Source of the DNA: Bacteroides sp.
GTDB taxonomy: Bacteria > Bacteroidota > Bacteroidia > Bacteroidales > Bacteroidaceae
Reading direction: 5' to 3'
Assembly: GCA_017471925.1 (NCBI GenBank)
Contig: JAFURM010000048.1
Location: forward strand, 1 to 45,470
DNA length: 45,470 bases
A program made the translations under genes and the position numbers. Below, piece by piece: positions 14,478-45,085 of this stretch. Under the pieces are notes generated by a model that saw only the letters and a program-made list of their open reading frames with translations, was not told the origin of the DNA and did no database searches. Position 1 is the first letter of the stretch. Each line of letters opens with the position of its first letter.

Positions 14478-14675
14478 TTTATTTTACATAAGCAAGTATC
14501 CATTCCACATCTTAAGCCATACCACAAGTACAGACTTTTTACCTCAGCAACAAGGTTTATAACAGCCTAATAATCAACACATTACAAAATCACTTAATAA
14601 ACGTCCAGTTTCTCACTGGCAATCGGGCGATTGCCAGTGAGAAACACCCCGATTGCCAGTGAGAAAATTTTGCTG
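14478..14675 (+). repeat. Dispersed ~195-bp element, copy 1: conserved flank plus 3-unit inverted array
   Basis: From 14478 (ttattttacat...) to about 14675 the sequence is recognisably homologous to 43731-43925. Shared blocks include cacatcttaagcc, aacaaggtttataaca, taataatcaa, cacttaataa and cgtcc. It ends in a cluster of three copies of cgattgccagtgagaaa: one inverted at 14609-14625, two direct at 14628-14644 and 14650-14666, the direct pair spaced 22 bp. The first two form a perfect 17-bp palindrome with a GG centre. No coding frame. It sits about 80 bp upstream of the rplY promoter. Confidence 0.85.
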
Positions 14676-14808
14676 TCACAAAAGCAGAATACACTCATAT
14701 TATCCACTTACCCACAAAACAATACAATTATTTATACAATATCACAAACAATCCCAATCTGTTTAAGATACTTTTTTTGAGGCACCTTTGAGCTGTGAGC
14801 GTACAAGC
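14676..14808. other. AT-rich intergenic stretch, no gene seen
   Basis: Nothing coding is convincing. A -7-like hexamer without its TA (cacctttg, 14783-14790) precedes the hairpin at 14809. A short transcript of about 50 nt ending at that hairpin is conceivable but unsupported. Confidence 0.4.
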
Positions 14809-14847
14809 AAAAGGAGGACATATCGCAGACGGACATATCCTCCTTTT
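14809..14847. terminator. Terminator-like hairpin
   Basis: A 16-bp imperfect stem (14809-14824 aaaaggaggacatatc; 14832-14847) with two internal mismatches and a T-run at 14844-14848. The A-run at the left end makes it usable by minus-strand transcripts, so it may be a back-up terminator for gdhA. Confidence 0.55.
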
Positions 14848-14865
14848 TATACTATGGCTACTCTA

Positions 14866-15039
14866 AGAGTCTGTTTTGAATTTATTCCATTCTTTTATTA
14901 TTCGCTTTCCATGAGTCTCTTTTCGGCTCTTCTGCCCGTTCTTTCTCGTCACATAGCCCGCTATGCCCCTTGAAAGAACAAACAAAATATCTCGAAAAGA
15001 CTCCTCATAAAAAGGCGGAATAAATTCAAAACAGACTCT
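14866..15039 (+). repeat. Dispersed palindromic element, copy A (complete, 174 bp)
   Basis: Bounded by perfect 22-bp terminal inverted repeats (14866-14887 agagtctgttttgaatttat..., and 15018-15039). Most of the interior is also an imperfect palindrome (gagtctcttttcggc ... ctcgaaaagactc; ccgttctttctcg ... ctttgaaagaac), so the whole unit could fold as one long hairpin. It lies 15 bp after the gdhA stop codon. The short frame at 14788-14973 lies over it and is not a gene. See copy B (23594-23756) and partial copies C (24595-24653) and D (3122-3165). Confidence 0.85.
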
Positions 15040-15054
15040 AAAATAATCTTTCGC

Positions 15055-16392
15055 TTACACGATGCCTTGAGCCATCATGGCGTTGGCCACCTTCATAAAG
15101 CCGGCAATGTTGGCACCCTTCACGTAGTTCACGTAACCATCGGCCTCGGTACCGTACTTCACGCAGTTTTGATGAATGTTCTCCATGATGTAGTGCAACT
15201 TGGCATCCACCTCTTCGGAACTCCAGGAAATGCGCTCGGAGTTCTGAGTCATTTCCAGACCGGACACTGATACACCACCGGCATTGGCAGCCTTGCCCGG
15301 TGCATAGAGTATCTTGGCATCCTGGAAAACCTTGATGGCTTCAGGAGTAGAAGGCATGTTGGCACCCTCGGACACTGCCATCACTCCATTGGCTACCAAC
15401 TGACGGGCATGGTCACCGTTCAGTTCGTTCTGAGTAGCGGAAGGCAGTGCGATGTCGGCTTTCTCACCCCAAGGCTTGGCACCTTCCACATACTTCACGC
15501 CCGGATATTGCTCGGCATATTCACGGATGCGGCCACGATAGAGGTTCTTCAACTCCATGATGTAATCCAACTTTTCGCGATCGATGCCGTCGGGGTCGTA
15601 CACATAACCGTCGGAGTCGGACATCGTGAGCACCTTGCCACCCAACTGCAGCACCTTCTCGGCCGTGTACTGCGCTACGTTTCCGGAACCGGAGATAAGC
15701 ACAGTCTTTCCCTTCAGGTCCTGACCTTTGGTCTTCAGCATCTCCATCAGGAAGTAAACATTACCGTAACCGGTTGCTTCGGGACGAATCAGTGAGCCGC
15801 CAAACTCACGGCCCTTACCGGTAAATGTGCCCGTAAACTCACGGGTCAGTTTCTTATACATACCGAACATGAAGCCCACTTCACGGCCACCCACACCGAT
15901 ATCACCGGCGGGAACGTCCATATCGGGACCTACATGACGCCACAGTTCCAGCATGAAGGCCTGGCAGAAACGCATCACCTCGGCACTGCTCTTGCCACGC
16001 GGAGAGAAATCGGAACCTCCCTTGCCACCACCCATAGGCAATGTGGTCAACGAGTTCTTGAATGTCTGCTCAAAAGCAAGGAACTTCAAGATGCCCAAGT
16101 TCACAGAGGAGTGGAAACGGATACCGCCCTTATAGGGACCGATGGCGTTGTTATGCTGCACGCGATAGCCCATATTGGTCTGCACGTTGCCTTTATCGTC
16201 CACCCAAGTGACACGGAACTGGAACACCCTGTCGGGAATACAGAGACGTTCTATCAAGTTCACCTTATCAAATTCGGGATGTTTGTTGTACTCTTCTTCG
16301 ATAGTTCCTAAAACTTCTTCTACTGCCTGATGATACTCCGGTTCATTGGGGAATCTTCTTTTCAGGTCTTCTAATACCTTAGCTGCATTCAT
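15055..16392 (-). CDS. gdhA: NADP-type glutamate dehydrogenase
   Basis: Hexameric cytoplasmic enzyme that interconverts 2-oxoglutarate plus ammonia and glutamate, the main ammonia-assimilation step in Bacteroides. The substrate-binding lysines are visible in GPYKGGIRF and TFKNS, and the catalytic Lys124 in PMGGGKGGSDF. The PAGDIGVGGREVGFM segment and the Rossmann motif VLISGSGNVAQYTAEK follow. At 445 aa from the ATG at 16392 it matches the family; the frame is open further upstream but carries no family sequence. A promoter with correct spacing lies at 16442-16472. The palindromic element at 14866-15039 follows the stop codon. Confidence 0.95.
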   Translation of the reverse strand: MNAAKVLEDLKRRFPNEPEYHQAVEEVLGTIEEEYNKHPEFDKVNLIERLCIPDRVFQFRVTWVDDKGNVQTNMGYRVQHNNAIGPYKGGIRFHSSVNLGILKFLAFEQTFKNSLTTLPMGGGKGGSDFSPRGKSSAEVMRFCQAFMLELWRHVGPDMDVPAGDIGVGGREVGFMFGMYKKLTREFTGTFTGKGREFGGSLIRPEATGYGNVYFLMEMLKTKGQDLKGKTVLISGSGNVAQYTAEKVLQLGGKVLTMSDSDGYVYDPDGIDREKLDYIMELKNLYRGRIREYAEQYPGVKYVEGAKPWGEKADIALPSATQNELNGDHARQLVANGVMAVSEGANMPSTPEAIKVFQDAKILYAPGKAANAGGVSVSGLEMTQNSERISWSSEEVDAKLHYIMENIHQNCVKYGTEADGYVNYVKGANIAGFMKVANAMMAQGIV

Positions 16393-16441
16393 AAACTTTA
16401 TTTCTTTATATTGGTTTATAATCCGTTTTTGATTTCGCTTG

Positions 16442-16472
16442 CAAAAGTACACATAAAAATCAAACCAACAAA
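16442..16472 (-). promoter_or_regulatory. Promoter of gdhA
   Basis: Minus strand: -33 TTTG (16472-16469), 19 nt, -7 TACTTTTG (16449-16442). The leader to the ATG at 16392 is about 40-45 nt. Confidence 0.8.
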
Positions 16473-16490
16473 CATTTTATAAGAAAAATA

Positions 16491-16523
16491 CGTGATAAAA
16501 CAACATTTTTCTGTTTTATCGCG
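16491..16523 (-). terminator. Hairpin between the ferredoxin operon and gdhA promoter
   Basis: 12-bp stem with one G-T type mismatch (16491-16502 cgtgataaaaca, 16512-16523). It lies between the stop of the small membrane protein (16576) and the gdhA promoter, so it may end the upstream operon. An operator role just upstream of the gdhA -33 element is the alternative. Confidence 0.45.
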
Positions 16524-16575
16524 CAAAAATGAATAAAAAGACAAAATATATACTCATTTTATGGTTCTATACGCT

Positions 16576-16749
16576 CTATTCCTTCTTCCGACTCTTGTAG
16601 ATGGGCAGGAAGATAAAGGCACTGGCCAACAGGAGCGTCACGATGACCGGACCATCCACACGCTCGGCACCGGTCAGCACAATGTAACACAATGCCGCCC
16701 AAAGCAGCACAATGCAGACCAGTTGGGTCTTGGAGAGTTTTCTTTTCAT
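16576..16749 (-). CDS. Small two-helix membrane protein (57 aa)
   Basis: A short frame on the minus strand, starting at the ATG at 16749 and ending at TAG 16576-16578. The protein begins MKRKLSKTQ and has two hydrophobic segments (LVCIVLLWAALCYIVL at about 10-25 and PVIVTLLLASAFIFLPIY at about 34-51). It ends with a basic tail KSRKKE. The positive-inside pattern puts both ends in the cytoplasm. Codon use matches the neighbouring genes and the hydrophobic pattern is unlike noise. It starts 19 bp after the EFR1-type ferredoxin gene, so it is probably co-transcribed. I do not recognise a family. Confidence 0.7.
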   Translation of the reverse strand: MKRKLSKTQLVCIVLLWAALCYIVLTGAERVDGPVIVTLLLASAFIFLPIYKSRKKE

Positions 16750-16768
16750 AAGTCACAATATGGATTCG

Positions 16769-17605
16769 TCAAAGTATCGTTTTGTTGGCTTTCGGCCGAT
16801 TGAAGTTGGCAGAAAGTAACGGAGCAAAGGGTGTATCGAAACGACGGGCCTGACGGGGACAACACTTGACGCAGGCACAACATCTGGTGCATCGCTCCTG
16901 AATCGTGTTGCACTCATCTCCCTCCACAATAGCAGCATTGGGACACGACTTCACACAAAGGCCGCAATGCGTGCAACGTCCGGCATCGGTTTGCGGCATA
17001 CGCGGAAAGACCGCTCCGCTCTTGCGCCATTTGGCAATCCGGTAGATAAACTTCAGCATGGGCCAAATGGGTTGTTTGGGACGGGGAATACGGGAGACAT
17101 CCACCCCATAGAGGTGCTCCATGTCGGTAGCGGCGGCTATCTTCCCGGCCACACTGCGTCCGAAGGCTTCGGCAAAAGCCAGGTCATCGGCATCAGGACG
17201 CCCCACGGCAATGGGATGCTCTGGTGTGCAGTAGGAGTGTTCGCCAATAAAGGTGCCTCCCGCAATCACCTTGAAGCCCTTCCGACAGGCCCAAGCATCC
17301 AGTTGCGTCAAGGCCGTTTCATAAGCCCGGTTACCATAGACCACCACCAGAGCGGCCGGTCCTCCAGCGGAACTTACCGTCTCCAACCGTTGCATGGCCA
17401 GCGGAGCGACCTTGCCGCCATATACTGGCACAGCAATGACCGTCAATGTCTCAGCGGCAATTTCCAACGGAGCAGGGAGTGGAGCCAATGTCAAATCGGC
17501 AATTTCCACATTATCCTCCCCCACTCCGCGAACAATAGCCTCTCCTATTTGTTGGGAAGTATGGGTAGGCGAAAACGTTATCAAATGTACTTTCTCAACC
17601 TTCAT
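16769..17605 (-). CDS. EFR1-type flavodoxin/ferredoxin fusion
   Basis: Probable electron-transfer protein. The first ~150 residues look flavodoxin-like: the FMN phosphate loop resembles TFSPTHTSQQIGEAIVRG, followed by AVPVYGGKVAPLAM and VVVYGNRAYETAL. The C-terminal part (about residues 215-265) carries two [4Fe-4S] sites, CTHCGLCVKSCP and CTRCCACVKCCP. This arrangement is that of EFR1-family ferredoxins. The start at 17605 (MKVEKVHLITF) begins directly at the first strand. Partner unknown; the small membrane protein 19 bp downstream is a candidate. It is transcribed divergently from rho. Confidence 0.85.
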   Translation of the reverse strand: MKVEKVHLITFSPTHTSQQIGEAIVRGVGEDNVEIADLTLAPLPAPLEIAAETLTVIAVPVYGGKVAPLAMQRLETVSSAGGPAALVVVYGNRAYETALTQLDAWACRKGFKVIAGGTFIGEHSYCTPEHPIAVGRPDADDLAFAEAFGRSVAGKIAAATDMEHLYGVDVSRIPRPKQPIWPMLKFIYRIAKWRKSGAVFPRMPQTDAGRCTHCGLCVKSCPNAAIVEGDECNTIQERCTRCCACVKCCPRQARRFDTPFAPLLSANFNRPKANKTIL

Positions 17606-17655
17606 CGTGATAATTTTAATTATATATATAATAAGGTATATAGTTGCTTCCACAG

Positions 17656-17663
17656 CAAAGATA
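17656..17663 (-). promoter_or_regulatory. -7 element for the ferredoxin gene
   Basis: The minus strand reads TATCTTTG about 50 nt upstream of the start at 17605. The nearest CAAA on the plus strand (17676-17679) is only 12 nt away, so the -33 element is unclear. Confidence 0.45.
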
Positions 17664-17689
17664 AGGCTTTATTAGCAAAAAAAGAACGA

Positions 17690-17724
17690 TTTGTTTATGA
17701 AAACCAAAATATTTCCTATCTTTG
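17690..17724 (+). promoter_or_regulatory. Promoter of rho
   Basis: TTTG at 17690-17693 and TATCTTTG at 17717-17724, with a 23-nt spacer at the long end of the usual range. The leader to the start at 17850 is about 120 nt, long enough for autoregulation as in other rho genes, but I see no specific structure. Confidence 0.65.
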
Positions 17725-17849
17725 CACCGCTGAAACCATCCGTTTTCCTACGGCAAGGAGAAATGACAAGACGGACTTCCGGTTCAGCCGACAACAAGTA
17801 CCCCCAAACAACATAGTGAATAACAGAATCAAACTCACACATATACTGT

Positions 17850-19937
17850 ATGTATAATATCATTCAATTAAACGACAAAAGTTTGCCGGAGCTGCAAGCT
17901 ATTGCCCAAGAATTGGGAATCAAAAAGACTGATTCACTGAAGAAAGAAGACCTGGTCTACAAAATTCTGGACGAACAGGCCATAGCCGGAGCCACCAAGA
18001 AAGTGGCCGCCGACAAGCTGAAAGAAGAGCGTAAGGCCGAGAAGCAGAAGCGTACACGCACCAAGAAGGAAGACGCGAAAGCCGACACCAAGGAAAAGAC
18101 TGCAAAGACAAACGACAACGCGACGAAGACGTCCAAGAAAGCCAAAACACCTAAGGCGGCAGCGACTCAAGAGACTACAGCCGTGACAACAGAGCCTGTA
18201 GCTGCAGCCACTACAACAGAGGCTTCAGACAAGAAGAGCAGCGACGAGAGCAAGCCGACTGCTACAGTCCAACCCGAAACCGCCCCTCAGCAGGAAGCAG
18301 TTCCCCAAAAGCGCAAGCCGGGACGTCCGCGCAAGAAACAACCGGAACCGGTCGCTGCCACACAGGAGACAACTCCCAAGACTGAATCGCCCAAAGCCGA
18401 GCAACAGCCTACAGAACAACCCGTAGCCGCACAGCAAGAAGTACCTGCCACACAGGCCACCCCCACAGAAGAGAAGAAAGAGGAGGCCGTCCCTGTAGCA
18501 GAAGAGAAGAAAACAGTCATTGAGCCGGGCGACGACTTCATTCCCATAGAAGACCTGCCCACCGAGAAGGTCGACCTGCCCACCGAGTTAATCGGCAAGT
18601 TCGAGGCAACCAAGGCAGAGGCACCGGCCATTCCCCAACAGCCCGAAGGTCAAGGCAAGCGCCAGCGCCAACGCATCAATAACAACAACCGTAACAATCC
18701 CAACAACAATAATAACCAACAGCGCCAGCAACAACAACGCCAGGCACAACCCGGCAACAATGTTCCCGAAGCCAGCAGCATGCCCGAGCGCAAGCCGCAG
18801 GAAAAGGCTTATGACTTTGAGGACATCCTGGGAGGTGTAGGTGTACTGGAAATCATGCCCGACGGTTACGGTTTCCTCCGCTCGTCCGACTATAACTACC
18901 TCTCCTCACCCGATGACATCTACGTGTCACAATCGCAAGTGAAACTCTTCGGTCTGAAGACCGGTGACGTAGTGGACGGCGTTATCCGCCCGCCCAAGGA
19001 GGGTGAGAAGTACTTCCCGTTGGTGAAGGTGAACAAGATCAACGGACGTGACCCCGGCTTTGTGCGCGACCGTGTTCCCTTTGAACACCTCACTCCCCTC
19101 TTCCCCGACGAGAAGTTCAAGCTCTGCAAGGGAGGCTACAGCGACTCCCTCTCCGCCCGTGTGGTAGACCTTTTCTCTCCCATCGGCAAGGGACAGCGTG
19201 CCCTCATCGTGGCCCAGCCCAAGACCGGTAAGACCATCCTGATGAAAGACATCGCCAATGCCATTGCAGCCAACCATCCCGAGGTCTACATGATTATGCT
19301 GCTCATTGACGAACGTCCGGAGGAAGTGACCGACATGGCCCGCACCGTCAACGCCGAGGTCATCGCCTCCACCTTTGACGAACCCGCCGAGCGTCACGTC
19401 AAGATTGCCGGTATCGTATTGGAAAAGGCCAAGCGCATGGTAGAGTGCGGACACGATGTGGTCATCTTCCTGGACTCCATTACCCGACTGGCCCGTGCTT
19501 ACAACACCGTCTCTCCGGCTTCGGGCAAGGTGCTCTCCGGTGGTGTGGATGCCAACGCCCTGCACAAGCCCAAACGCTTCTTCGGTGCTGCCCGCAACAT
19601 TGAAGGAGGCGGCTCGCTCACCATTCTGGCCACTGCACTCATAGACACCGGCTCCAAGATGGACGAAGTGATTTTCGAAGAGTTCAAGGGCACAGGAAAC
19701 ATGGAACTGCAGCTCGACCGCGGCCTGAGCAACAAGCGCATCTTCCCTGCCGTGAACATCATTGCATCCAGCACCCGTCGCGACGACCTCCTGCAAGACA
19801 AGACGACCCTCGACCGCATGTGGATTCTCCGCAAGTACCTGGCCGACATGAATCCGCTGGAGGCTATGGAGTTCGTGAAAGACCGTCTGGAGAAGACCAA
19901 GGACAACGACGAGTTCCTGATGAGCATGAATGGATAA
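17850..19937 (+). CDS. rho: Transcription termination factor Rho with a long disordered N-terminal insert
   Basis: RNA-dependent ATPase hexamer that ends transcription. The N-terminal Rho_N helices are at residues ~1-45 ([20 protein letters not shown]). An insert of ~270 residues follows: Lys/Glu/Ala/Thr/Pro-rich to ~230, containing an AT-hook-like RKPGRPRKK, then Asn/Gln-rich ([23 protein letters not shown]) at ~270-305. The RNA-binding cold-shock-like domain starts at [24 protein letters not shown]. Walker A is residues 455-462 (AQPKTGKT) and Walker B is [16 protein letters not shown]. The total of 695 aa compares with 419 in E. coli. Published work on Bacteroides thetaiotaomicron Rho links such an insert to phase separation and gut fitness. 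ffh follows 34 bp downstream. Confidence 0.95.
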
Positions 19938-19971
19938 ATACATAATTCACAATTCATAATTATTCTGCATC

Positions 19972-21303
19972 ATGTTTGACAATCTTAGTGAAAGATTAGA
20001 ACGTTCATTCAAAATATTGAAAGGTGAAGGAAAAATCACCGAAATCAATGTGGCCGAAACCTTGAAAGACGTGCGCAAGGCTCTGCTCGATGCCGACGTC
20101 AACTACAAGGTAGCCAAGAACTTCACCGATACCGTAAAGGAGAAGGCATTGGGACAGAACGTACTCACAGCCGTGAAGCCCAGCCAGTTGATGGTGAAGA
20201 TAGTACACGATGAGCTCACCGTCCTGATGGGTGGCGAGACCGCCGAAATCAACATTGACAGCAAGCCCGCCGTCATCCTGATGTCCGGTCTGCAAGGTTC
20301 GGGTAAAACCACCTTCTCCGGCAAACTGGCCCGCATGCTGAAGACCAAGAAGAACCGCAAGCCGTTGCTCGTGGCCTGTGACGTCTATCGTCCTGCCGCC
20401 ATTGAGCAGCTGCGCGTGTTGGCCGAACAGATTGGCGTGCCCATGTATAGCGAACCGGAAAGCAAGAATCCCGTACAGATAGCACAGAACGCCATCCAAG
20501 AGGCCAAGGCCAAGGGTTACGACCTGGTCATCGTCGATACAGCCGGTCGTCTGGCCGTGGACGAGGAGATGATGAACGAGATTGCCGCCATCAAGGAGGC
20601 CATCCATCCCAATGAAATTCTCTTCGTAGTGGATGCCATGACCGGTCAGGATGCCGTGAACACGGCCCGCGAGTTCAATGAACGGCTGGACTTCAACGGT
20701 GTCGTACTGACCAAGCTGGACGGTGACACCCGTGGCGGTGCCGCTCTCTCCATCCGCACAGTGGTCAACAAGCCCATCAAGTTTGTAGGTACCGGTGAGA
20801 AGTTGGAAGCCATCGACCAGTTCCACCCCTCACGTATGGCCGACCGTATCCTCGGCATGGGCGACATCGTTTCATTGGTGGAACGTGCCCAGGAACAGTA
20901 TGACGAGGAAGAAGCCAAACGCCTGCAGCGCAAGATCCAGAAAAACCAGTTCGACTTCAACGATTTCATGGCCCAAATCCAACAAATCAAGAGAATGGGT
21001 AACCTGAAAGATCTCGCCTCCATGATTCCCGGTGTAGGCAAGGCACTCAAGGACATAGATATCGATGACAATGCTTTCAAGAGCATCGAGGCCATCATCA
21101 ACTCCATGACCCCCAAGGAGCGTACCAATCCTGAGATATTGAACGGCAGCCGCCGCCAGCGTATCGCCAAAGGCAGTGGAACCAACATCCAGGAAGTGAA
21201 CCGTCTCCTGAAGCAGTTCGACCAGACTCGCAAGATGATGAAGATGGTCACCGGCAGCAAGATGGGCAAGATGATGGGAGGCATGCCGAGAATGAAACGA
21301 TAA
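19972..21303 (+). CDS. ffh: Signal recognition particle protein Ffh (SRP54)
   Basis: GTPase that binds signal sequences and 4.5S RNA and targets nascent membrane proteins to FtsY. The N domain is MFDNLSERLERSFKILKG. The G domain has G1 GLQGSGKTTFSGKLA (about residue 103), DTAGRLAVDEEMM and TKLDGDTRGGAALSI. The methionine-rich M domain ends in KMMKMVTGSKMGKMMGGMPRMKR. All 443 residues fit the family. It lies between rho and folD on one strand with short gaps. Confidence 0.96.
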   Translation: MFDNLSERLERSFKILKGEGKITEINVAETLKDVRKALLDADVNYKVAKNFTDTVKEKALGQNVLTAVKPSQLMVKIVHDELTVLMGGETAEINIDSKPAVILMSGLQGSGKTTFSGKLARMLKTKKNRKPLLVACDVYRPAAIEQLRVLAEQIGVPMYSEPESKNPVQIAQNAIQEAKAKGYDLVIVDTAGRLAVDEEMMNEIAAIKEAIHPNEILFVVDAMTGQDAVNTAREFNERLDFNGVVLTKLDGDTRGGAALSIRTVVNKPIKFVGTGEKLEAIDQFHPSRMADRILGMGDIVSLVERAQEQYDEEEAKRLQRKIQKNQFDFNDFMAQIQQIKRMGNLKDLASMIPGVGKALKDIDIDDNAFKSIEAIINSMTPKERTNPEILNGSRRQRIAKGSGTNIQEVNRLLKQFDQTRKMMKMVTGSKMGKMMGGMPRMKR

Positions 21304-21324
21304 TCCCCAAGCAACGATAGAACC

Positions 21325-22206
21325 ATGCAGATTATTGACGGAAAAGCCATCTCCGAGCAGGTGAAGCAGGAGATTGCAGCAGAAGTGGCAGAGATTGTGG
21401 CAGCAGGAGGCAAACGTCCTCACCTGGCAGCCATCCTCGTAGGCCATGATGGCGGCAGCGAGACCTATGTGGCCGCCAAGGTGAAAGCGTGTGAAGTATG
21501 CGGATTCAAGTCATCACTCATCCGCTATGAGGCCGATGTGACCGAAGAGGAGCTCCTGGCCAAGGTGCGCGAACTGAATGACGACAACGACGTGGACGGC
21601 TTCATTGTACAGTTACCCTTGCCCAAACACATCTCCGAGCAGAAGGTCATCGAGACCATCGACTACCGCAAGGACGTGGACGGCTTCCACCCCATCAACG
21701 TGGGACGCATGAGCATCGGCCTGCCCTGCTACGTGTCAGCCACCCCTAACGGCATCCTGGAACTGCTGAAACGCTATAACATCGAAACGCAAGGCAAGAA
21801 ATGTGTCGTCCTGGGCCGCAGCAACATCGTGGGCAAGCCGATGGCCAGCCTGATGATGCAGAAAGCCTATCCGGGCGATGCCACAGTGACCGTTTGCCAC
21901 AGCCGCAGCAAAGACCTGGTGAAGGAATGCCAGGAGGCGGACATCATCATTGCCGCATTGGGCCAGCCCAACTTTGTAAAGGCCGACATGGTGAAGCCCG
22001 GAGCAGTCATCATCGACGTAGGTACCACCCGAGTGCCCGATGCCACCCGCAAGAGCGGTTTCAAGCTGACCGGTGACGTGAAGTTTGATGAAGTGGCCGA
22101 GAAATGCTCTTATATCACCCCCGTACCCGGCGGCGTAGGTCCCATGACCATCGTTTCTCTGATGAAGAACACGCTGTTGGCCGGAAAGAAGGCCATCTAC
22201 AAGTAA
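21325..22206 (+). CDS. folD: Bifunctional methylenetetrahydrofolate dehydrogenase/cyclohydrolase
   Basis: Interconverts 5,10-methylene-, methenyl- and 10-formyl-tetrahydrofolate. The active-site Tyr-x3-Lys is in [13 protein letters not shown]. The signatures [33 protein letters not shown] and [16 protein letters not shown] are intact. 293 aa, normal. Its stop (TAA 22204-22206) overlaps the ATG of the next gene by one base, implying coupled translation. ffh is 21 bp upstream. Confidence 0.96.
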
Positions 22207-23593: not shown

Positions 23594-23756
23594 AGAAACT
23601 GTTTTGATTTTATTTATGCATTCTTTTAAGGAGTCTTTTCACGGATGTTTTCCTTCTCTTTCAAGGAGCATAGCGGGCTATGTGACGAGAAAGAACGGGC
23701 AAAATATCTCGAAAAGACTCCTCATAAAAAGGCTGAATAATTTCAAAACAGACTCT
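23594..23756 (+). repeat. Dispersed palindromic element, copy B (complete, ~163 bp)
   Basis: Same unit as 14866-15039, same right-arm orientation. The right end (23735-23756) is nearly identical to that of copy A. The left end (agaaactgttttgattttat) is diverged. The interior keeps ggagtcttttc / gaaaagactcc, agcgggctat and gacgagaaagaacgggcaaa. It lies 38 bp after the tRNA-His terminator. Confidence 0.85.
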
Positions 23757-23791
23757 CAATGGAGTATGATTCTGGGTCTAAAAAGACTAAT

Positions 23792-24492: not shown

Positions 24493-24573
24493 GCAGTATA
24501 TATTCATTGGCACTTGAAGTATATATTACTTTGCCATCGCAGTATATATTAAATGGGGGATGAAGTATATCTT
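24493..24573. repeat. Four 12-bp units at exact 23-bp period
   Basis: gcagtatatatt (24493), gaagtatatatt (24516), gcagtatatatt (24539) and gaagtatatctt (24562) are each 23 bp apart, with three different 11-bp spacers. The second base alternates c/a. It has the geometry of iterons or stacked operator sites. No coding frame. See the findings for three other arrays with a similar period. Confidence 0.85.
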
Positions 24574-24594: not shown

Positions 24595-24653
24595 GAACAA
24601 AATCTCGAAAAAGACTCCTCATAAAAAGGCTGAATAAATTCAAAACAGACTCT
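24595..24653 (+). repeat. Dispersed palindromic element, copy C (right part only)
   Basis: gaacaaaatctcgaaaaaga and the next ~39 bp to gactct match the right arm of copies A and B nearly base for base. The left half is absent. It ends 49 bp before the glnS -7 element. Confidence 0.8.
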
Positions 24654-36286: not shown

Positions 36287-36295
36287 ATCAGGAGA

Positions 36296-37069: not shown

Positions 37070-37106
37070 TGTATACCGTTTATAAGTTATCAAGTCATGC
37101 ACAAGA

Positions 37107-37137
37107 AAGCGAGGGTGTATATGGCACATCCCCGCTT
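37107..37137 (-). terminator. Weak hairpin between dnaN and the exonuclease gene
   Basis: 12-bp stem with two mismatches (37107-37118 aagcgagggtgt; 37126-37137). No clear T-run. It may attenuate or only separate the genes. Confidence 0.3.
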
Positions 37138-37163
37138 GCCCGGCATTATCATTTTAAGATGGA

Positions 37164-38288: not shown

Positions 38289-38357
38289 AGATTCTATATT
38301 TTAAAGTTTTTATTTATATTCACGCCATGGACGGAACTGCCGTCTCAAAGTATCGGA

Positions 38358-38389
38358 CAAAGTTAACAAAAGTATTTACGACAGCCAAG
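38358..38389 (-). promoter_or_regulatory. Promoter of the dnaN operon
   Basis: Minus strand: -7 TAACTTTG (38365-38358) with a -33 CTTG (38389-38386), 20-nt spacer. A second -7-like TACTTTTG overlaps at 38374-38367 but lacks a -33 at the right distance. Confidence 0.5.
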
Positions 38390-38440
38390 AATCTCAAGGA
38401 AAAATAGCCACATCGCCCCACTTTTCTTTATCCAGGAGGA

Positions 38441-39361
38441 CTATCTCAACTTCAGCCGATCACCGATTTCGGGTATATAGTCGCCGTTCTTCTTGTTCAT
38501 CTTATAAAGATTCTTCAAACGGATACCATAGATTTGTGAGATGGAGTGCATGGATTCACCGCTTCTCACGATGTGATATTCGTGCCCCTTGACAGCCTTC
38601 TTGTTCTTCTGCTTCAAGTAGATGATGTCACCGGCCTCCAAGGTGTAGTCCTTGTGCAGGTCATTATATTTCACCAGTTTTTTCCATGCGATGCCAAACT
38701 CTCCCGCAAGGTGGCGGAAGGTGTCGCCATCGCGGGCCACCACATAAGCCAGTCCGTTGGCAATATATACCTGATGGGGGCGGACGAGCCACGGTTTCTT
38801 CTTCACCTCCTTCTCCCAGCGGCGTGCCTCCCGTTTGCTCATGCCCTGGCGGTCATACTTGTACAGTTCATAGTCCTCAACAATCGAAATCAGCCGATTG
38901 GCATAGGAGGGATCGGTGGCATATCCAGCCTTCTTCAGGCCGCGCGCCCACCCTTTATAATCCGTAATCTTCAGTTTGAAAAGAGAGGCATAACGGGTGC
39001 CTTGCACCAGAAAGGTTGAATGGTCCTCATAAGAGTCCTTGGGATTGCTGTACGCCCGAAAGCACTCTCCCTTGGCATCATCGTCATAGTAGACCTTCCG
39101 TCCCCGCCAGTTCTTGTGACACTTGATGCCGAAATGATTGTTGCTCTTGCGGGCCAGTTGGCTCATCCCCGCCCCGCTCTCCAGGAGTCCTTGGGCCAGC
39201 GTGATACTGGCCGGAATCTTGTGTTTCTGCATCTGTGCGACGGCAAGGGGAGCATATTGCTTGATGTAGGCATTATATCGGGCATTGCGGCGCTGGGCAT
39301 GCACGGCCGTAGCCAGCAAGAGGAACACCACCCATAGAGTCAGTCTGATAGTTTGCTTCAT
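38441..39361 (-). CDS. Secreted glucosaminidase-domain protein with LysM repeat
   Basis: Probable peptidoglycan hydrolase. Signal peptide MKQTIRLTLWVVFLLLATAVHA. The catalytic glucosaminidase domain (about 30-170) has the Glu in ASITLAQGLLESGAGMSQLA, then FGIKCH and the core around DDHSTFLV-like EDHSTFLVQGTRY. At least one clear LysM-type peptidoglycan-binding motif is at the C-terminus (YHIVRSGESMHSISQIYGIRLKNLYKMN), and a second, weaker one precedes it (YVVARDGDTFRHLAGEFGIAWKKLVKYND). 306 aa. It is divergent from the cytidine deaminase gene. Confidence 0.9.
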   Translation of the reverse strand: MKQTIRLTLWVVFLLLATAVHAQRRNARYNAYIKQYAPLAVAQMQKHKIPASITLAQGLLESGAGMSQLARKSNNHFGIKCHKNWRGRKVYYDDDAKGECFRAYSNPKDSYEDHSTFLVQGTRYASLFKLKITDYKGWARGLKKAGYATDPSYANRLISIVEDYELYKYDRQGMSKREARRWEKEVKKKPWLVRPHQVYIANGLAYVVARDGDTFRHLAGEFGIAWKKLVKYNDLHKDYTLEAGDIIYLKQKNKKAVKGHEYHIVRSGESMHSISQIYGIRLKNLYKMNKKNGDYIPEIGDRLKLR

Positions 39362-39401
39362 GCTTCATTTTTTGAGTTCGATACAAAAGTCTGCAAAAGA
39401 A

Positions 39402-39431
39402 TTGAGATTTCCAATTTCTTCGCTATCTTTG
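39402..39431 (+). promoter_or_regulatory. Promoter of the cytidine deaminase gene
   Basis: TTG at 39402-39404, 19 nt, TATCTTTG at 39424-39431, about 30 nt before the start at 39462. Confidence 0.7.
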
Positions 39432-39461
39432 TGCATACAATTTCACTTAATACATTGCTGC

Positions 39462-39944
39462 ATGAAAGACAAGACCCTACAGATTGCTATAAAAGTGTAC
39501 GATTTTTCCGAACTGCCTGCGGAAGACCAATCCCTGCTCCACATGGCCAAGGAGGCCACCTATCGGAGCTATGCCCCCTATTCCCATTTCTCTGTAGGTG
39601 CGGCAGCCCTGTTAGAGAATGGCGAGACGGTCAGTGGAAGCAACCAGGAGAATGCGGCCTACCCTTCCGGCATCTGTGCAGAGCGCACCACCCTCTTCTA
39701 TGCCAACTCACGCTATCCCGACCAGGCGGTCACCACCCTTGCCATAGCGGCACGCAACGAGCGTGGAGAGTTTCTTCCCACTCCTATTCCTCCTTGCGGA
39801 GCCTGTCGCCAGGTGATGCTTGAGACCGAAGCACGCGCCCGACGTCCCATGCGCATCCTGCTCTATGGCACAGCAGAAGTCTATGAACTGCAAGGAGTCT
39901 CTTCCCTGCTTCCGCTCTCCTTCAGCGCTTCGGCCATGCAATGA
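39462..39944 (+). CDS. cdd: Cytidine deaminase
   Basis: Zinc enzyme of pyrimidine salvage converting cytidine/deoxycytidine to uridine/deoxyuridine. The zinc ligands and catalytic Glu are in AAYPSGICAERTTLFYAN (Cys-Ala-Glu) and PPCGACRQVM (Cys-x2-Cys). The substrate segment YAPYSHFSVGAAALLENG is intact. 160 aa. The start at 39462 is chosen because it follows the promoter by about 30 nt; the frame extends further upstream. Its last 23 bp overlap the end of the opposing gene (39922). Confidence 0.94.
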   Translation: MKDKTLQIAIKVYDFSELPAEDQSLLHMAKEATYRSYAPYSHFSVGAAALLENGETVSGSNQENAAYPSGICAERTTLFYANSRYPDQAVTTLAIAARNERGEFLPTPIPPCGACRQVMLETEARARRPMRILLYGTAEVYELQGVSSLLPLSFSASAMQ

Positions 39945-40395
39945 GGTTTTCAGAGGCCGAATAAGATTTCAGGAGGGTCAATGTGCGTTCCCGCTGTTTC
40001 CTTCTGTTGAATTGCCAGAACTCCCTGGTAAACAGCAGCATCAGGTCATACCCTTTCGGTGCATGACCATCCTGTATTTTCCGGTGCAACCCGAGCAACA
40101 GGTTAGGATCTATGCCATAGTGTCTGAGCGTAAGCACTTCGGTACGGATATCCTTCTTGACTTGGGGCAGCGAAGCGTCATAGGCCAGCCAGGGCTTGTA
40201 CTCCACGGGCAGAGGAACGACCTCGGGCAGTTCCACCCCCATCTCTTTCAGGGCCTTGGCGTTCAACTTTATCTCTCCCTCACTCTGCAACAGTTCTTGC
40301 AGGCGCAAGGAGTCCTCCGCATTCCACTCTTGTGCACAAAGACCGGCAAAGGCCATAAGCGACACTCCCATCAACAGGAACAGACGTCTCACCAT
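39922..40395 (-). CDS. Secreted protein of unknown function, last gene of the sigma operon
   Basis: A hydrophobic N-terminus (MVRRLFLLMGVSLMAFAGLCAQ) reads as a signal peptide. The mature part is basic and mixed, about 135 residues (EWNAEDSLRLQELLQSEGEIKLNAKALKEMG, GYDLMLLFTREFWQF). It may be one of the Bacteroides-only DUF families, but I cannot assign the number. The start at 40395 is chosen over 40431 because it begins the signal peptide and lies 8 bp after the upstream stop (40404). The 3' end overlaps cdd by 23 bp. Confidence 0.65.
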   Translation of the reverse strand: MVRRLFLLMGVSLMAFAGLCAQEWNAEDSLRLQELLQSEGEIKLNAKALKEMGVELPEVVPLPVEYKPWLAYDASLPQVKKDIRTEVLTLRHYGIDPNLLLGLHRKIQDGHAPKGYDLMLLFTREFWQFNRRKQRERTLTLLKSYSASENLIAWPKR

Positions 40396-40403
40396 ACCAC
40401 TCA

Positions 40404-40967
40404 CTACCACCACATATAACCGCTTCCACACAAAGGTTCGTCATAGCACGGATCTACCGTCCACATGGTTCGGGGCAGTTTACGCCCTTCCCACCAACGC
40501 CGATAACGCTCTGCCGCATCCCTGACCTCGGCATCCGAGAGGAAATAGATTCCTTCATAATTGTCTGCATCCGTATGCACCATCTTGCACCCCATAGAGG
40601 CGAAGCGTCCTAAGCGGATAGTCTCTATCGTCCATAAGATGCACTCCCCCAGCCTCAGTTTGCCCCCTGCCGAATAGGAGACGGGAGCCAAAGGGAAGGA
40701 GGAAATCAGTGTCATGTCTTCTGCATGCTCCAGCAGATACTCAATATCATCCATGGTGAAATGAGGAATGTGGTTCACGCCGTCACTTCCCTGAACGCTA
40801 TACTTGCCGCTCTTCAACTGTTTCACGAAGAGGGCGGCATCGGGATGGTTGTAGTCCAGCATCTCCTCATGGCATGCACTTCCCAAGAGGGCCATGCACA
40901 CCAGCAAAGCAACGAGTCCCCAACGGGCCGTCAGATGACGATTTAGGCGATATGGCTGTTTCATCAT
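40404..40967 (-). CDS. Predicted lipoprotein of unknown function
   Basis: 187 aa with a hydrophobic signal ending LLGSAC-H, a lipobox-like site at about residue 32. The mature protein contains MDDIEYLLEHAEDMTLISSFPL and a Trp-rich end (YRRWWEGRKLPRTMWTVDPCYDEPLCGSGYMWW). It is probably a Bacteroides-specific DUF protein that I cannot name securely. It lies between the membrane/barrel gene and another secreted protein in the ECF sigma operon, so an envelope role is likely. Confidence 0.65.
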   Translation of the reverse strand: MMKQPYRLNRHLTARWGLVALLVCMALLGSACHEEMLDYNHPDAALFVKQLKSGKYSVQGSDGVNHIPHFTMDDIEYLLEHAEDMTLISSFPLAPVSYSAGGKLRLGECILWTIETIRLGRFASMGCKMVHTDADNYEGIYFLSDAEVRDAAERYRRWWEGRKLPRTMWTVDPCYDEPLCGSGYMWW

Positions 40968-40984
40968 TCTATCTCCTTATTTAT

Positions 40985-42061
40985 TTAATATACCATACGT
41001 ACTCCGCACAACAGGTTCATATTGGCCGGACGTTCCGTATGCAGTGTACGCAAATCCGAATCCGTGTCAAAATGGTAGGCCAACGATGGCTCCGCAAAAA
41101 ACGCAATCCGTTCATTCAACTTATAGCGGACTCCCACTCCGGCCATAGCCGACAACTGCACCGGTTCTCCTCCCCGCCCCTTGCCGACTGCTTTCTCCAG
41201 TGCACCACCCACTGTTGCATAGAAGTCCACCTTGGAAGAGGTGGCCAACGTGGCATCCAGCCTGACCGGAAGAGAGAGAGTATGCAACTGTCCGCTTCCC
41301 TCCATCGGCAGCCTGTTATATTGCAATCCGGCTTCCAAGGCCCAGGTCTTGTCCAACCTGCGCTCCAGCATCACCCCCACAGCCAGCGGCATTCCGAAAT
41401 CGCCCTTGGGAAGTGAGGCCCCCACCGCAGCCTTGATGGCCCACTTGGCATCTTCTCCCGTCACTCGCTTTTTCTCTTCGTTCTCCTCCTCTCTGGAGTC
41501 TTCTGCCGATGAGCCATAGTCAGAAACACGCTGACCGGCCTTATTGTTCTAGCCATAAGCGGCATATCCGGCCTCGTTATCGGAAGAAGGATAGCCTCTT
41601 TGGGATATCGTGATGGAGAGATGGAGCGATATGGACTCCGCCTCCTCTTCCGCCTCTCCGGATGCCTGCGTGGCACGCTGTATCGGAAGCGGGACAAATG
41701 AAGTCGGAGCGGCAGCAACAGAAGAAGAAGAGGTTTCGGCCGGGGAAGAGTAAGGAGAGTTCGTTTCACCTGAGGCCGTTTCTCCCTGAGGAGCCAGAAC
41801 TGCCACCTGCGTAAAGGCTTCCTTTATCTCCTCGCGAGGCGAAAAGTACCACAATGAAGCAGAAGCCACCCCCAACAAAAGAGCCACTGATGCCACAGCC
41901 ATACAATGGCGGAAGCGCACCACCACAGCCCGGCCAGCCTTGCCGCCCTCCTGCAGCAGGCTTCCCTGCAATTCTTCCCAGAAGTTATCACGCACCTCCA
42001 GTTCGGCTCCCTGAAGGCGGTTTCTGAACAAATTCTCCATACTGTTGTCTCTATTCTTCAT
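40985..42061 (-). pseudogene. Membrane-anchored barrel-like protein downstream of ECF sigma, interrupted by an in-frame TAG
   Basis: Two frames, 42061-41549 and 41464-40985, are in the same phase and are separated only by the TAG codon at 41549-41551. Between them the sequence reads on as NNKAGQRVSDYGSSAEDS then REEENEEKKRVTGEDAKWAIK. The N-terminus (about 1-51) looks like an anti-sigma cytoplasmic part (ENLFRNRLQGAELEVRDNFWEEL). Next come one membrane helix (residues 52-73, CMAVASVALLLGVASASLWYF), a Ser/Thr/Pro/Glu linker, and ~150 residues with barrel-like alternation ending in MVY. Read through, it has 358 positions. Either a point mutation (for instance CAG to TAG), a sequencing error, or suppression. 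The first part overlaps the sigma gene by 11 bp, or starts at 42040 (MENLF). Confidence 0.75.
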
Positions 42062-42644
42062 GATTGATATATGCTTTTATCCGTTTTGCTAACAAACACT
42101 TGGCCCTGCTGAGTTGGGAGGTGGACGAATGCTCTCTGATGCCCAGCATTTCGGCAATCTCCTTATGCGACTTCTCTTCAAAGACAAAGAGGTTGAACAC
42201 CGTCCTGCACCCTTGGGGCAACTCTGCCACAAACTTCATCAAGACCTCCTCCGAGAGGCGTTCCGCTTCCTCCATTGGCAGTGATTCATCAGCCACCTCG
42301 GGAAGCAGCTCTTCATGCAGCATCATTTTTTCAAAACGCTGCAGCCTTCTCAGGTGATCGATGGCCTGCGTCACCATCACCCTCGTCATCCAAGTGGCCA
42401 AGGCACATTCGCCCCGAAACGTGAAGTGCGTGAATATCTTGACAAAGCCATCATGCAACACATCATGAGCGGCATCCATATCACCGGTATAGCGGTAACA
42501 AACGGCCAACAACCGCTTGGAGAAGAGGGTGTACAACTCCCTTCGGGCAGCTTCTTTTCCTGCCCGGCAGCCTTCAACCAATGCCATCTCATTTTCCAAT
42601 ATTGTCCGTGTTTTTATGGACGCTTCAATGCGTCGTTTGTCCAT
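42051..42644 (-). CDS. ECF-type RNA polymerase sigma factor
   Basis: Sigma-70 family, regions 2 and 4 only. Region 2 is ELYTLFSKRLLAVCYRYTGDMDAAHDVLHDGFVKIF and TFRGECALATWMTRVMVTQAIDHLRR. Region 4 is ELPQGCRTVFNLFVFEEKSHKEIAEMLGIREHSSTSQLSRAK. The start may be 42644 (MDKRR) or 42587 (MALVEGC). The order sigma, membrane-anchored barrel protein, lipoprotein, secreted protein suggests a self-contained envelope-signalling operon with the second gene as its anti-sigma. No TonB receptor or PUL genes are attached. Confidence 0.88.
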   Translation of the reverse strand: MDKRRIEASIKTRTILENEMALVEGCRAGKEAARRELYTLFSKRLLAVCYRYTGDMDAAHDVLHDGFVKIFTHFTFRGECALATWMTRVMVTQAIDHLRRLQRFEKMMLHEELLPEVADESLPMEEAERLSEEVLMKFVAELPQGCRTVFNLFVFEEKSHKEIAEMLGIREHSSTSQLSRAKCLLAKRIKAYINHEE

Positions 42645-42705
42645 TAGACGAGAGTTTTCCGCCAATGCTGCAAGGGGAAGCATAAAAAGATGTTAATTCA
42701 CAAAA

Positions 42706-42752
42706 AACTCCCCATGAGTCCGTCCATCGTGTGGCCATCCTCATGGGGAGTT
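42706..42752 (-). terminator. Rho-independent terminator of nadC
   Basis: Perfect 13-bp stem (42706-42718 aactccccatgag; 42740-42752) downstream of the nadC stop at 42770, followed on the minus strand by a T-run (plus-strand a at 42702-42707). Confidence 0.8.
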
Positions 42753-42769
42753 CCTTTCAGAGTCTGTTG

Positions 42770-43618
42770 TCAGCAAGCCTTGAAACTCATGTCCAGTCCC
42801 TTCACCGAATGAGTCAATGCACCGACCGATATAAAGTCTACGCCACATTCGGCATAGTCACGCAATGTATCGAAAGTGATGCCGCCCGAAGACTCGGTTT
42901 CATAACGCCCGGCCACCATCTCTACCGCCTTTCTGGTCATCTCGGGAGTGAAATTGTCAAACATGATGCGATCCACGCCTCCCAAGTCGAGCACCTGTTG
43001 CAGTTCGTCGAAGTTGCGCACCTCAATCTCTATCTTCAGGTCCTTACCCTTGGCCCGGCAATACTCCTTGGCTCTTGTTATCGCCTTGTCTATGCCTCCG
43101 GCAAAGTCCACATGATTGTCCTTCAAGAGAATCATATCAAAGAGACCGATGCGGTGGTTCACTCCGCCTCCAATCTTCACGGCCATCTTCTCTAAGATGC
43201 GCATGCCGGGAGTCGTCTTGCGAGTGTCCAAGACACGGGTTTTCGTACCCTGCAGACGTTCCGCATACTTATGGGTCATGGTAGCTATACCACTCATGCG
43301 TTGCATGATGTTCAGCATCAGTCGTTCTGTCTGCAACAAGGACTGCACCTTGCCTTCCACCACCATAGCCACATCACCCGGTTTCACGGCCGCCCCGTCC
43401 TGGATGAATACCTCCACCTTCATTTCGGAATCAAAACGGCGGAACACCTCCTTGGCTATCTCTATGCCGGCCAGGATTCCCTCCTCCTTTATCAAGAGTT
43501 TGGACTTTCCCATCGCAGTGTCAGGGATGCACGAAAGGGTCGTATGGTCTCCATCACCAATATCTTCGGCAAACGACAAGTCAATCAGCCTGTCAATCAA
43601 TTCTTCTTCTTTATTCAT
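42770..43618 (-). CDS. nadC: Nicotinate-nucleotide pyrophosphorylase (carboxylating)
   Basis: Converts quinolinate plus PRPP to nicotinate mononucleotide in NAD synthesis. The motifs are ERLMLNIMQRMSGIATMTHKYAERLQGTKTRVLDTRKTTPGMR, VKIGGGVNHRIGLFDMILLKDNH and ESSGGITFDTLRDYAECGVDFISVGALTHS. 282 aa, complete. It stands alone, bounded by its own terminator and by the repeat element upstream. Confidence 0.95.
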   Translation of the reverse strand: MNKEEELIDRLIDLSFAEDIGDGDHTTLSCIPDTAMGKSKLLIKEEGILAGIEIAKEVFRRFDSEMKVEVFIQDGAAVKPGDVAMVVEGKVQSLLQTERLMLNIMQRMSGIATMTHKYAERLQGTKTRVLDTRKTTPGMRILEKMAVKIGGGVNHRIGLFDMILLKDNHVDFAGGIDKAITRAKEYCRAKGKDLKIEIEVRNFDELQQVLDLGGVDRIMFDNFTPEMTRKAVEMVAGRYETESSGGITFDTLRDYAECGVDFISVGALTHSVKGLDMSFKAC

Positions 43619-43643
43619 TTGTCTCTTTGTTTGTTATGACACG

Positions 43644-43651
43644 CAAAGGTA
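43644..43651 (-). promoter_or_regulatory. -7 element of nadC
   Basis: The minus strand reads TACCTTTG 26 nt before the start at 43618. The -33 element is weak (CTTG at 43674-43671 is the best at the right distance). Confidence 0.55.
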
Positions 43652-43730
43652 ACTCATTTATCACAAAAAACAAGGGCTTTCATCAAATTCAGTGCTGTTT
43701 TTCTCCATTCCGACCGCAGCCAACAAACCA

Positions 43731-43925
43731 TTTTATTTTACACAAACAAGCACCAGCACCACATCTTAAGCCCACCACAGATACGGATTTTTACTCAAAC
43801 AACAGGTTTTATAACAATTTAATAATCAATGGATTACCAAACCACTTAATAATCGTCCGGTTTCTCACTGGCAATCGACCCGATTGCCAGTGAGAATCGG
43901 AGCGATTGCCAGTGACAAATTTTCA
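43731..43925 (+). repeat. Dispersed ~195-bp element, copy 2, ending in hipA
   Basis: Homologous to 14478-14675, with the same order of blocks (ttattttaca, cacatcttaagcc, acaggttttataaca, taataatcaa, cacttaataa, cgtcc). The array has an inverted unit tttctcactggcaatcg at 43861-43877 and direct copies beginning at 43881 and 43903 (22 bp apart); the third ends in gtgaca. The right end, about 43925, coincides with the breakpoint of the hipA gene. Confidence 0.85.
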
Positions 43926-44418
43926 CTGACTGCATTGTCAAAGACTCATCGGGCATAATCTTTGCATGTTCGCGTTCCAAAAATATCTTTTGAGCCAATA
44001 ATGTCAAAGCCTTCAGGTTGAGCCGCTCCGTCTTTTTCATTCCTGATGATTCGGGCATAAACTCCAATGCCCCCATAGTTCGCTTCCCAATAAATGACAA
44101 TATATCGAGTGGGGTAATCTCCTGATTGCGTATATTATTCTGAATACGCCAACACTCGAATACCTGATTTCCCCAAGCATCGGGAAGAGAATCGGCAAGA
44201 AAAGGCGGAAGCTTGCGATACAACTTTGTTTCTTTATCTCCCACGATAGGTCTTTTACTGATAGGAGAACTCGTTGAAGCAATCAATGGGAACGGATTGA
44301 TGGCACTATTGAGAAATTCCTTGTTGTATTCAAAATAGGCAACACCTTTTCTTGGGTCCCAAGATAATCGGCCCAATTCCTTTCCCCAAAGTAATATTTT
44401 CAGCGCACTGGTAATCAT
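43846..44418 (-). pseudogene. hipA: Truncated HipA-like kinase toxin (N-terminal part only)
   Basis: The first 163 residues match the N-terminal region of Bacteroidota HipA-type Ser/Thr kinases: KILLWGKELGRLSWDPRKGVAYFEYN, the conserved LPPFLADSLPDAWGNQV and ERLNLKALTLLAQKI, ending at PDESLTMQ. The segment that should follow (beginning with the GTSAGG ATP-site region) and the whole kinase domain are missing. After Gln163 (codon 43930-43932) the frame runs ~27 codons through the repeat element (SLAIGSIASEKPDDY). HipA proteins are usually above 400 aa. No kinase activity is expected. It overlaps hipB by 4 bp (44415-44418), so the antitoxin-toxin coupling is retained. Confidence 0.85.
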
Positions 44419-44726
44419 GGCTTTTTATGCCTTATTCGTTGCACTTTCTTTTGGTTGTCTTTTATCAAATAGGCCGATTCCGGAAGTTCGGGCATCAATT
44501 CGTCCAAGCTGTCTATTTGGCCGATAGCTTTCATAAGCGACAAAAACGTTCCCAATGACATATTGCCAGCCAGGCCATTCTCAAATTTATGAATGGTAAC
44601 GATGGTTATTCCCGCTTGTTCTGCCACATCTTTCTGCGTCATTTGTGAGCGAAGGCGATAATCCTTGAATCGACTACCAAGTAGTTTAATCAATTCCGGT
44701 ATTGAATATTCATAATAATCAATCAT
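44415..44726 (-). CDS. hipB: HipB-like helix-turn-helix antitoxin/autorepressor
   Basis: 103-aa Xre/Cro-type protein. The HTH is RFKDYRLRSQMTQKDVAEQAGITIVTIHKFENG, followed by LDELMPELPESAYL and a basic tail KKVQRIRHKKP. It normally binds its own operator and neutralises HipA. It lies directly before hipA with a 4-bp overlap. Because the partner has lost its kinase domain, the antitoxin may be an orphan repressor. AT-rich like the surrounding accessory DNA. Confidence 0.85.
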   Translation of the reverse strand: MIDYYEYSIPELIKLLGSRFKDYRLRSQMTQKDVAEQAGITIVTIHKFENGLAGNMSLGTFLSLMKAIGQIDSLDELMPELPESAYLIKDNQKKVQRIRHKKP

Positions 44727-44974
44727 ACATAAATTATATTATACTATATGTTATACTCAAATAAGCCACTTTATTTATACTGCGCTTATATTTACGATAT
44801 AAAGATGCACTTTTATTAATTAAAAACAATTCCCCAACTAATAAATTCACCATTTGTATGCACCATATTCATTTCTTGCCAATCTATCTGTTGCAATCAC
44901 CATTACATTATGCAGTATCCAATTTATGTTTTCAAATCCGGCACTCCAGTATCCTTTTTCAAAAACGCAAAGTG
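44727..44974. other. AT-rich intergenic stretch
   Basis: No gene is supported. The start region of hipB presumably contains the hipBA operator, but I could not pick a convincing palindrome. Confidence 0.4.
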
Positions 44975-45085
44975 ATACTGCAGTACCACATAGCTGGTAC
45001 TGCAGTTTTTCCTATGTGGTACTGCGGTACCACTTATGTGTGACTGGCATGTTACTTATATGTGTTGAAAGGCAACTTATATGTG
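44975..45085. repeat. Degenerate array with ~22-bp period upstream of a truncated recombinase
   Basis: tactgcagta (44976), tactgcagtt (44998) and tactgcggta (45020) are each 22 bp apart. An overlapping series acttatgtg (45032), acttatatgtg (45054) and acttatatgtg (45075) continues at 22 and 21 bp. The first units are also arranged as inverted repeats: 44975-44993 is nearly the reverse complement of 45012-45030. The array ends 3 bp before the first recombinase residues I can align. The frame across it is open but not family-like. Confidence 0.75.

Follow-up and report, generated by a model that had tools for sequence, protein, structure and literature searches.

A paper by Subirana and Messeguer, reportedly published in J Bacteriol in 2020, dealt with constant-size bacterial tandem repeats. 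In the available part of another account by them, repeats of 20-23 nt, constant in size and variable in sequence, form several families per species, and their function is given as unknown (PMC8161180). BrickBuilt of Porphyromonas gingivalis is, in the available text, a minisatellite of 23 nt lying within a MITE (PMC4596501), and the text on IS21 places the end repeats of the element 23 bp apart (PMC10122671).

The window analysed here, a stretch of 45,470 bp from a Bacteroides sp. genome (contig JAFURM010000048.1), contains four short arrays. They are members of three or more dispersed families of non-coding repeats. These families occur among many other words, all spaced at 21-23 bp. Direct reading located the arrays where the earlier note had placed them, with small corrections at the ends. 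For instance, the start of array 3 (43861) was retained, and its end moved from 43917 to 43919. Arrays 2, 3 and 4 were also detected by TRF. Rfam gave no match at the arrays and tRNA-His was its sole match in the window, so a known RNA was rejected as the identity of the arrays.

Table 1. Features of the window; positions of single units were read from the sequence.
Feature	Position	Strand	Description
Family A element copy, shared flank and array 1	14454-14675	+	Alignment of 10 family A loci
Array 1, family A	14609-14666	+	Units tttctcactggcaatcg / cgattgccagtgagaaa; 1 inverted (14609-14625) and 2 direct (14628-14644, 14650-14666); direct spacing 22 bp
Array 2, family B	24493-24573	+	4 units, exactly 23 bp; agtatatatt at 24495, 24518 and 24541, agtatatctt at 24564
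Family A element copy that includes array 3	43708-43928	+	Alignment of 10 family A loci
Array 3, family A	43861-43919	+	1 inverted (43861-43877) and 2 direct units, which start at 43881 and 43903, 22 bp apart
Truncated hipA, Couple_hipA domain only	43928-44415	-	Matches intact relatives up to 8 bp from array 3
HTH (HipB-like) gene, between arrays 3 and 4	44415-44726	-
Array 4, family C	about 44972-45085	+	Palindromic GGTACTGCAGTACC-type units (tactgcagt-type), then ACTTATATGTG units (acttatgtg/acttatatgtg at 45032, 45054 and 45075; steps 22 and 21), 21-22 bp
Tyrosine recombinase, C-terminal part	45084-45470	+	Homology to full-length relatives starts at array edge

Array families in the genome and its relatives

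Arrays 1 and 3 carry one word, as had been noted before, and both are copies of family A, which occupies 10 distinct loci in the source genome. Alignment of these loci revealed flanks common to most copies on both sides, and the two element copies in the window match without gaps at 74-82%. Family A copies feature one inverted unit facing a variable number of direct units, from one to five; arrays 1 and 3 have three units in all, and another copy has six (L008). Arrays 2 and 4 have four to five units.

Family B, represented by array 2, was found at 18 distinct loci. Many copies consist of a bare block of about 75 bp, in which the sequences between the words, unlike CRISPR spacers, recur from copy to copy. 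They also keep their order, which indicates that whole blocks were copied. About eight near-identical copies sit in a longer element, in most cases cut by a contig end; the complete copy L035 has, by eye, the inverted ends GGCTCTTCTGCAATTT, which point to an element family other than the IS21/Mu/Tn7 kind. Family C (array 4) is present at four loci. The earlier view that the arrays form one dispersed family, the word of which changes while the spacing is kept, stands in part. A class with kept spacing and differing words is supported by the scans reported below, but arrays 1 and 3 belong to a single family, of which they are two copies with flanks in common.

Arrays were scored against chance as three or more copies of an 8-mer spaced equally, 12-60 bp apart. 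The sample comprised the window and 20 stretches of 20 kb from the same genome (445 kb, about 15% of the genome). Eight arrays were found, with periods of 21, 22, 22, 23, 23, 23, 33 and 44 bp (21-23 or 44 bp in seven of the eight), and none in Markov shuffles, three per stretch. The comparison with shuffled DNA suggested in the earlier note thus came out in favour of the spacing. In TRF profiles of the same sample, 24 of the 66 arrays with 2.4 or more copies fall in a peak at 21-23 bp, the next commonest periods being 7 (12 arrays), 9 and 14 (seven each). Words other than those of families A, B and C were also found at 21-23 bp in the roughly 15% of the genome scanned. Among non-coding arrays with a period of at least 18, as defined with a simple ORF caller, 11 of 12 have a period of 20-24 bp.

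Units or arrays have, in part, dyad symmetry, either as palindromic units or as an inverted unit facing direct ones. For 29 words, hand-listed from the TRF output, some of them adjusted and those of IS21 excluded, palindromy was tested against shuffles. It reached p<0.05 in eleven, with a combined p of about 1e-9. By the same measure, the words of families A and B are not themselves palindromic.

Family A is present in one of 61 genomes, that of the window, and was found in none of the 60 relatives, 36 of which belong to the same genus. A pattern search with its hairpin gave no match in the genome contig collection. The family A 17-mer has single matches in two viral contigs, with no array in the stretches read, and the 24-mer of family B matched no viral contig; phage or plasmid cargo was rejected on these results. 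In one uncultured Bacteroidales MAG, the family B 24-mer occurs in three contigs. In an attempted empty-site comparison, the three contigs of this second genome match our sample at the array only.

The survey of relatives covered eight species of the genus, with 100 kb apiece. It yielded 25 non-coding arrays with a period of at least 9. Fourteen have a period of at least 18, and 10 of these, spread over six species, a period of 20-24 bp. Non-coding arrays of 22-24 bp occur in six of the eight sampled species, with words other than those of the source genome; none was found in the 100 kb of G031 or of G086. IS21 ends account for two of the 10 arrays with a period of 20-24 bp. Upstream of glnS, where the source genome has its array at -226, 22-bp arrays with other words are found at -185 to -207 in three of 29 relatives, along with one 1.9-copy, 23-bp pair at -49. 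This does not exceed expectation, given that 38 of 493 relative genes have arrays of 20-24 bp within 500 bp, and word turnover at this locus was set aside.

Gene breakpoints and possible mechanisms

Two genes are truncated at array edges. The two closest relatives of the hipA piece (82% and 77%) are open frames of 499 residues, whereas the piece in the window matches Couple_hipA and no kinase family. The truncation reported before is thus real, and DNA homology stops at 43928, 8 bp from array 3 rather than about 12. The recombinase is likewise truncated: in a 98% identical relative (L304) the frame is open over 403 residues. Homology starts at 45084, at the final two bases of array 4 and not about 3 bp beyond it. 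At neither breakpoint is the missing gene part found on the far side of the array, and hence both look like deletions ending at the array, rather than insertions. The arrays may be recombination hotspots or remnants of integration, as the earlier note suggested, insofar as two broken genes do adjoin their edges.

The two-turn spacing and the dyad symmetry suggest that the arrays are stacked protein sites on DNA. The earlier reading of 22-23 bp, about two helical turns, as stacked binding sites would fit both the kept spacing and the palindromic words. Each array could thus be a stack of sites on one DNA face for an oligomeric DNA-binding protein, with one word per protein, and the blocks (about 75 bp in family B, about 200 bp in family A) may have spread as small non-autonomous elements. 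The protein would most likely be an IS21/Mu/Tn7-type transposase that acts in trans on arrays resembling transposon ends, and its cleavage could have left the deletions that start at array edges in hipA and the integrase.

With slightly less than even confidence, we favour this picture of small non-autonomous elements made of stacked two-turn sites and most like IS21/Mu/Tn7 transposon ends. It is favoured by the dispersed copies with shared blocks, the peak at 21-23 bp, the palindromy, the breakpoints at arrays 3 and 4, and the fact that IS21 ends carry repeats of their own word at 23-24 bp. Seven IS21 regions were fetched, and ends were resolved in four, NCBIfam confirming IS21 for two. The four elements, from sister species, have four different words, repeated at both ends with a spacing, by eye, of 23-24 bp. 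Families A-C would be linked to an IS21 transposase by geometry only. In the source genome, IS21 was seen solely as a piece at the end of a contig, with end words that, read by eye, are not those of A, B or C. Among the best 25 of 60 families, no transposase stands out in the 45 array-neighbour proteins (45 of 49 ORFs were scanned), and no IS21 gene lies beside a copy of A, B or C. Inspected by eye, the satellites have no IS21-type termini and no target duplication. Classically, IS21/Mu/Tn7 sites are not known to consist of palindromic units. The transposon-end reading is weakened by the palindromic units and the GGCTCTTCTGCAATTT ends, as by the lack of a neighbour transposase, the other IS21 words and the missing IS21 termini.

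Alternatively, the arrays may be REP/BIME-like sites for a host protein, either a regulator or an organiser of the nucleoid, which would polymerise in steps of two turns, their spread being secondary. This is the reading given in the available part of Subirana and Messeguer (PMC8161180), and palindromic words agree with it, as does placement. Arrays appear to lie mostly between convergent or tandem genes: of 21 loci in the source genome with a gene on both sides, nine are convergent, 11 tandem and one divergent, and 14 loci in genomes G084 and G017 include five, eight and one, respectively. However, divergent (promoter) regions are seldom occupied, words change between species, family A being absent from all 60 relatives, and the many words per genome would require as many proteins. 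We regard host-protein sites as rather unlikely.

Neutral minisatellites, arising by slippage with the 22 bp period set by a replication or repair bias, would account for the variable number of direct units in family A, but neither for dispersal nor for palindromy, and the kept order within family B blocks argues for copying of whole blocks; this explanation is improbable.

A role at the RNA level, as hairpins or terminators at gene 3' ends, finds some support in the GACGGTTGCA family, in which eight of 14 copies in G084/G017 have a terminator-like hairpin beside them. However, the same scan gave none beside the 24 copies of A, B and C in the source genome, the overall count is nine of 39 arrays against 14 of 150 random placements, and Rfam matched none of the arrays. 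A terminator was thus rejected as a general array partner, being a feature of one family in G084/G017, and RNA-level elements appear very improbable. A helper element for the GACGGTTGCA family was sought as well: no two of its 14 loci in the two genomes lie within 10 kb, and no partner was found.

It is least probable of all that the arrays are sites of AAA_14-DUF4143 ATPases, the promoters of which have phased repeats: array-neighbour proteins belong to DUF4143 more often than to any other family (five of 45, within the best 25 of 60 families), and arrays of 20-24 bp lie within 500 bp of five of 12 such genes against 39 of 263 genes in the source genome (p 0.028) and of nine of 43 against 38 of 493 in relatives (p 0.008), but this enrichment, uncontrolled for intergenic length, partly consists of the promoter arrays themselves (L166, L182 and L203), and the promoter words were found nowhere else, as dispersed arrays or otherwise, in the 445 kb sample, which led us to reject these putative operators as the source of the satellites.

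Promoter repeats of AAA_14-DUF4143 genes

We identified 12 AAA_14-DUF4143 genes above the Pfam cut-off in the source genome and 43 in 10 of 12 relatives. Four places below the cut-off were dropped (L174, L185, L186 and L194), and six more were left out. A TRF array is present within 100 bp upstream of the start in 14 of the 55 genes, against 16 of 748 sampled genes. The periods of the 14 arrays are 19, 23 (three arrays), 32, 33 (seven) and 40 (two). Periods of 30-35 occur in eight of 55 DUF4143 genes and one of 748, this one being a DUF4143 gene of the set. Among AlbA_2 genes, used as a control with three of 27 loci dropped as having no ORF, only one of 24 (L229) has such an array.

Within 150 bp upstream, 9-mers repeated in direct orientation show the same trend (29 of 54 distinct DUF4143 promoters against 38 of 361 control genes with an upstream gap of at least 100 bp). 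They occur in three of 23 AlbA_2 promoters, and shuffled DUF4143 promoters gave a mean of 5.1 of 54, with a maximum of 10. Spacings cluster at 22-23, 32-33, 40-42 and 66. Homologues from plasmids of other genera and phyla have repeats at 33 or 66 bp in five of nine cases (Segatella, Parabacteroides twice, Vescimonas and Agathobacter), and the other four have none. Solved AAA ATPases, 2fna among them, are matched weakly by an alignment profile of AAA_14-DUF4143.

Promoters of AAA_14-DUF4143 genes have private repeats spaced at 22, 33 or 40 bp, an observation that looks newer than that of the arrays; a literature search returned no paper joining DUF4143 with direct repeats. Each gene seems to bear its own phased operator, and the ATPase may regulate its own expression. 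The repeats offer a first concrete handle on a large family of uncharacterised ATPases. It is also conceivable, though distinctly improbable, that a genus-wide word-switching system exists, in which a fast-evolving class of DNA-binding proteins would read stacked sites at whole helical turns, specificity and words changing together between species. The two-turn arrays dispersed in the genome and the private promoter arrays of two, three and four turns would then be two faces of one kind of protein.

Comparison with known systems

REP and REPIN sequences with their RAYT transposase are likewise short, palindromic, dispersed intergenic repeats composed into blocks, but the window arrays differ in their strict two-turn tandem spacing. 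No Y1_Tnp gene was found at E<=0.001 in the source genome, which is 89% complete, and a REP/RAYT identity was rejected on this basis; papers on these elements include PMC3733652 and PMC6006769. IS21 ends, as described in the available part of PMC10122671, resemble the window arrays in having direct repeats of their own word at a spacing of 22-24 bp. IS21 repeats are inverted at the two element ends, with IstA/IstB between them; the window arrays have neither a transposase nor matching termini. The transposon-end mechanism is our best guess.

The earlier note knew of no named family with these features; in the texts available, two published precedents were found, the constant-size satellites (PMC8161180) and BrickBuilt (PMC4596501). 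BrickBuilt, as far as the available text goes, shares a two-turn unit (23 nt in BrickBuilt), dispersed intergenic copies and a Bacteroidales host, and its 'leader' and 'tail' are matched by the shared flanks of family A. The word differs, and the arrays described here have fewer units. IS5-type terminal inverted repeats (GAGACC...), a BrickBuilt feature, were not seen by eye in the TIR-bounded copy of family B, which reads GGCTCTTCTGCAATTT, and none were seen for A or C.

Constant-size satellites, in the available part of PMC8161180, have a two-turn unit, are non-coding and form several families per genome without sequence conservation between species, as the window arrays do. The present arrays are non-coding repeats of 20-23 nt in several species-specific families of one length. 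Most have three to five units, compared with a cut-off of four in that text, which does not name Bacteroidales in the part available; about one third of their words are palindromic, and they sit in longer shared blocks. Satellites of fixed two-turn size and free sequence have been reported from many bacteria without a function, and this genus offers a testable system, with many words per genome, the geometry of sister-species IS21 ends, dyad-symmetric units and breakpoints at array edges. The window arrays are real, dispersed and two-turn spaced, new members of a published but unexplained kind. They belong with the constant-size satellites and work much like BrickBuilt, of which they are not members.

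Direct repeats upstream of ATPase genes

Promoters of AAA_14-DUF4143 ATPase genes, which were identified in the Bacteroides sp. genome (L162-L173), in its relatives (L175-L220) and on plasmids (L322-L330), feature gene-specific direct repeats spaced by approximately two, three or four helical turns. Direct repeats over the promoter were found in 29 of 54 AAA_14-DUF4143 promoters, compared with 38/361 control genes (upstream gap of at least 100 bp). Among the plasmid homologues, 5/9 have a repeat spacing of 33 or 66 bp, and two of these five are from Clostridia. Of the 32-, 33- and 40-bp arrays located immediately upstream of DUF4143 genes in the Bacteroides sp. genome, the longest spans 6.8 units.

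Repeats associated with the short arrays

A second dispersed repeat, AAAAGACTCCTCATAAAAAGGC...CAAAACAGACTCT, is located near arrays 1 and 2 in the window, and also adjoins L004, a copy of family A (the dispersed repeats that include array 1). A further word family, GAACATATGTTC, which has a 22 bp spacing, adjoins copies of families A and B, the latter including array 2. In the related genomes G017 and G084, a terminator-like hairpin is part of the same block as a 22-bp array family.

Locations of the repeats and arrays
Feature	Location
AAAAGACTCCTCATAAAAAGGC...CAAAACAGACTCT copies	window 14940-15042, 23657-23759, 24609-24653
AAAAGACTCCTCATAAAAAGGC...CAAAACAGACTCT, inverted copy	window 14865-14898
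GAACATATGTTC word family	flanks of L006 and L037
22-bp array + hairpin AAGGGAGAAGT..ACTTCTCCCTTTTTTT	L280, L282, L284-L286, L288-L290 (G017/G084)
32-, 33- and 40-bp arrays, immediately 5' of DUF4143 genes (Bacteroides sp.)	L165:711-801, L169:561-784, L173:2602-2706

Paralogous genes and a partial IS21 element

Two large paralogous genes lie side by side in the window (7091-9232 and 9225-11414), and share long stretches of ~70-82% DNA identity. Elsewhere in the genome, a partial IS21 element (L254) is cut at the end of contig C22, and belongs to the same family as the IS21 element of G064, a related genome.
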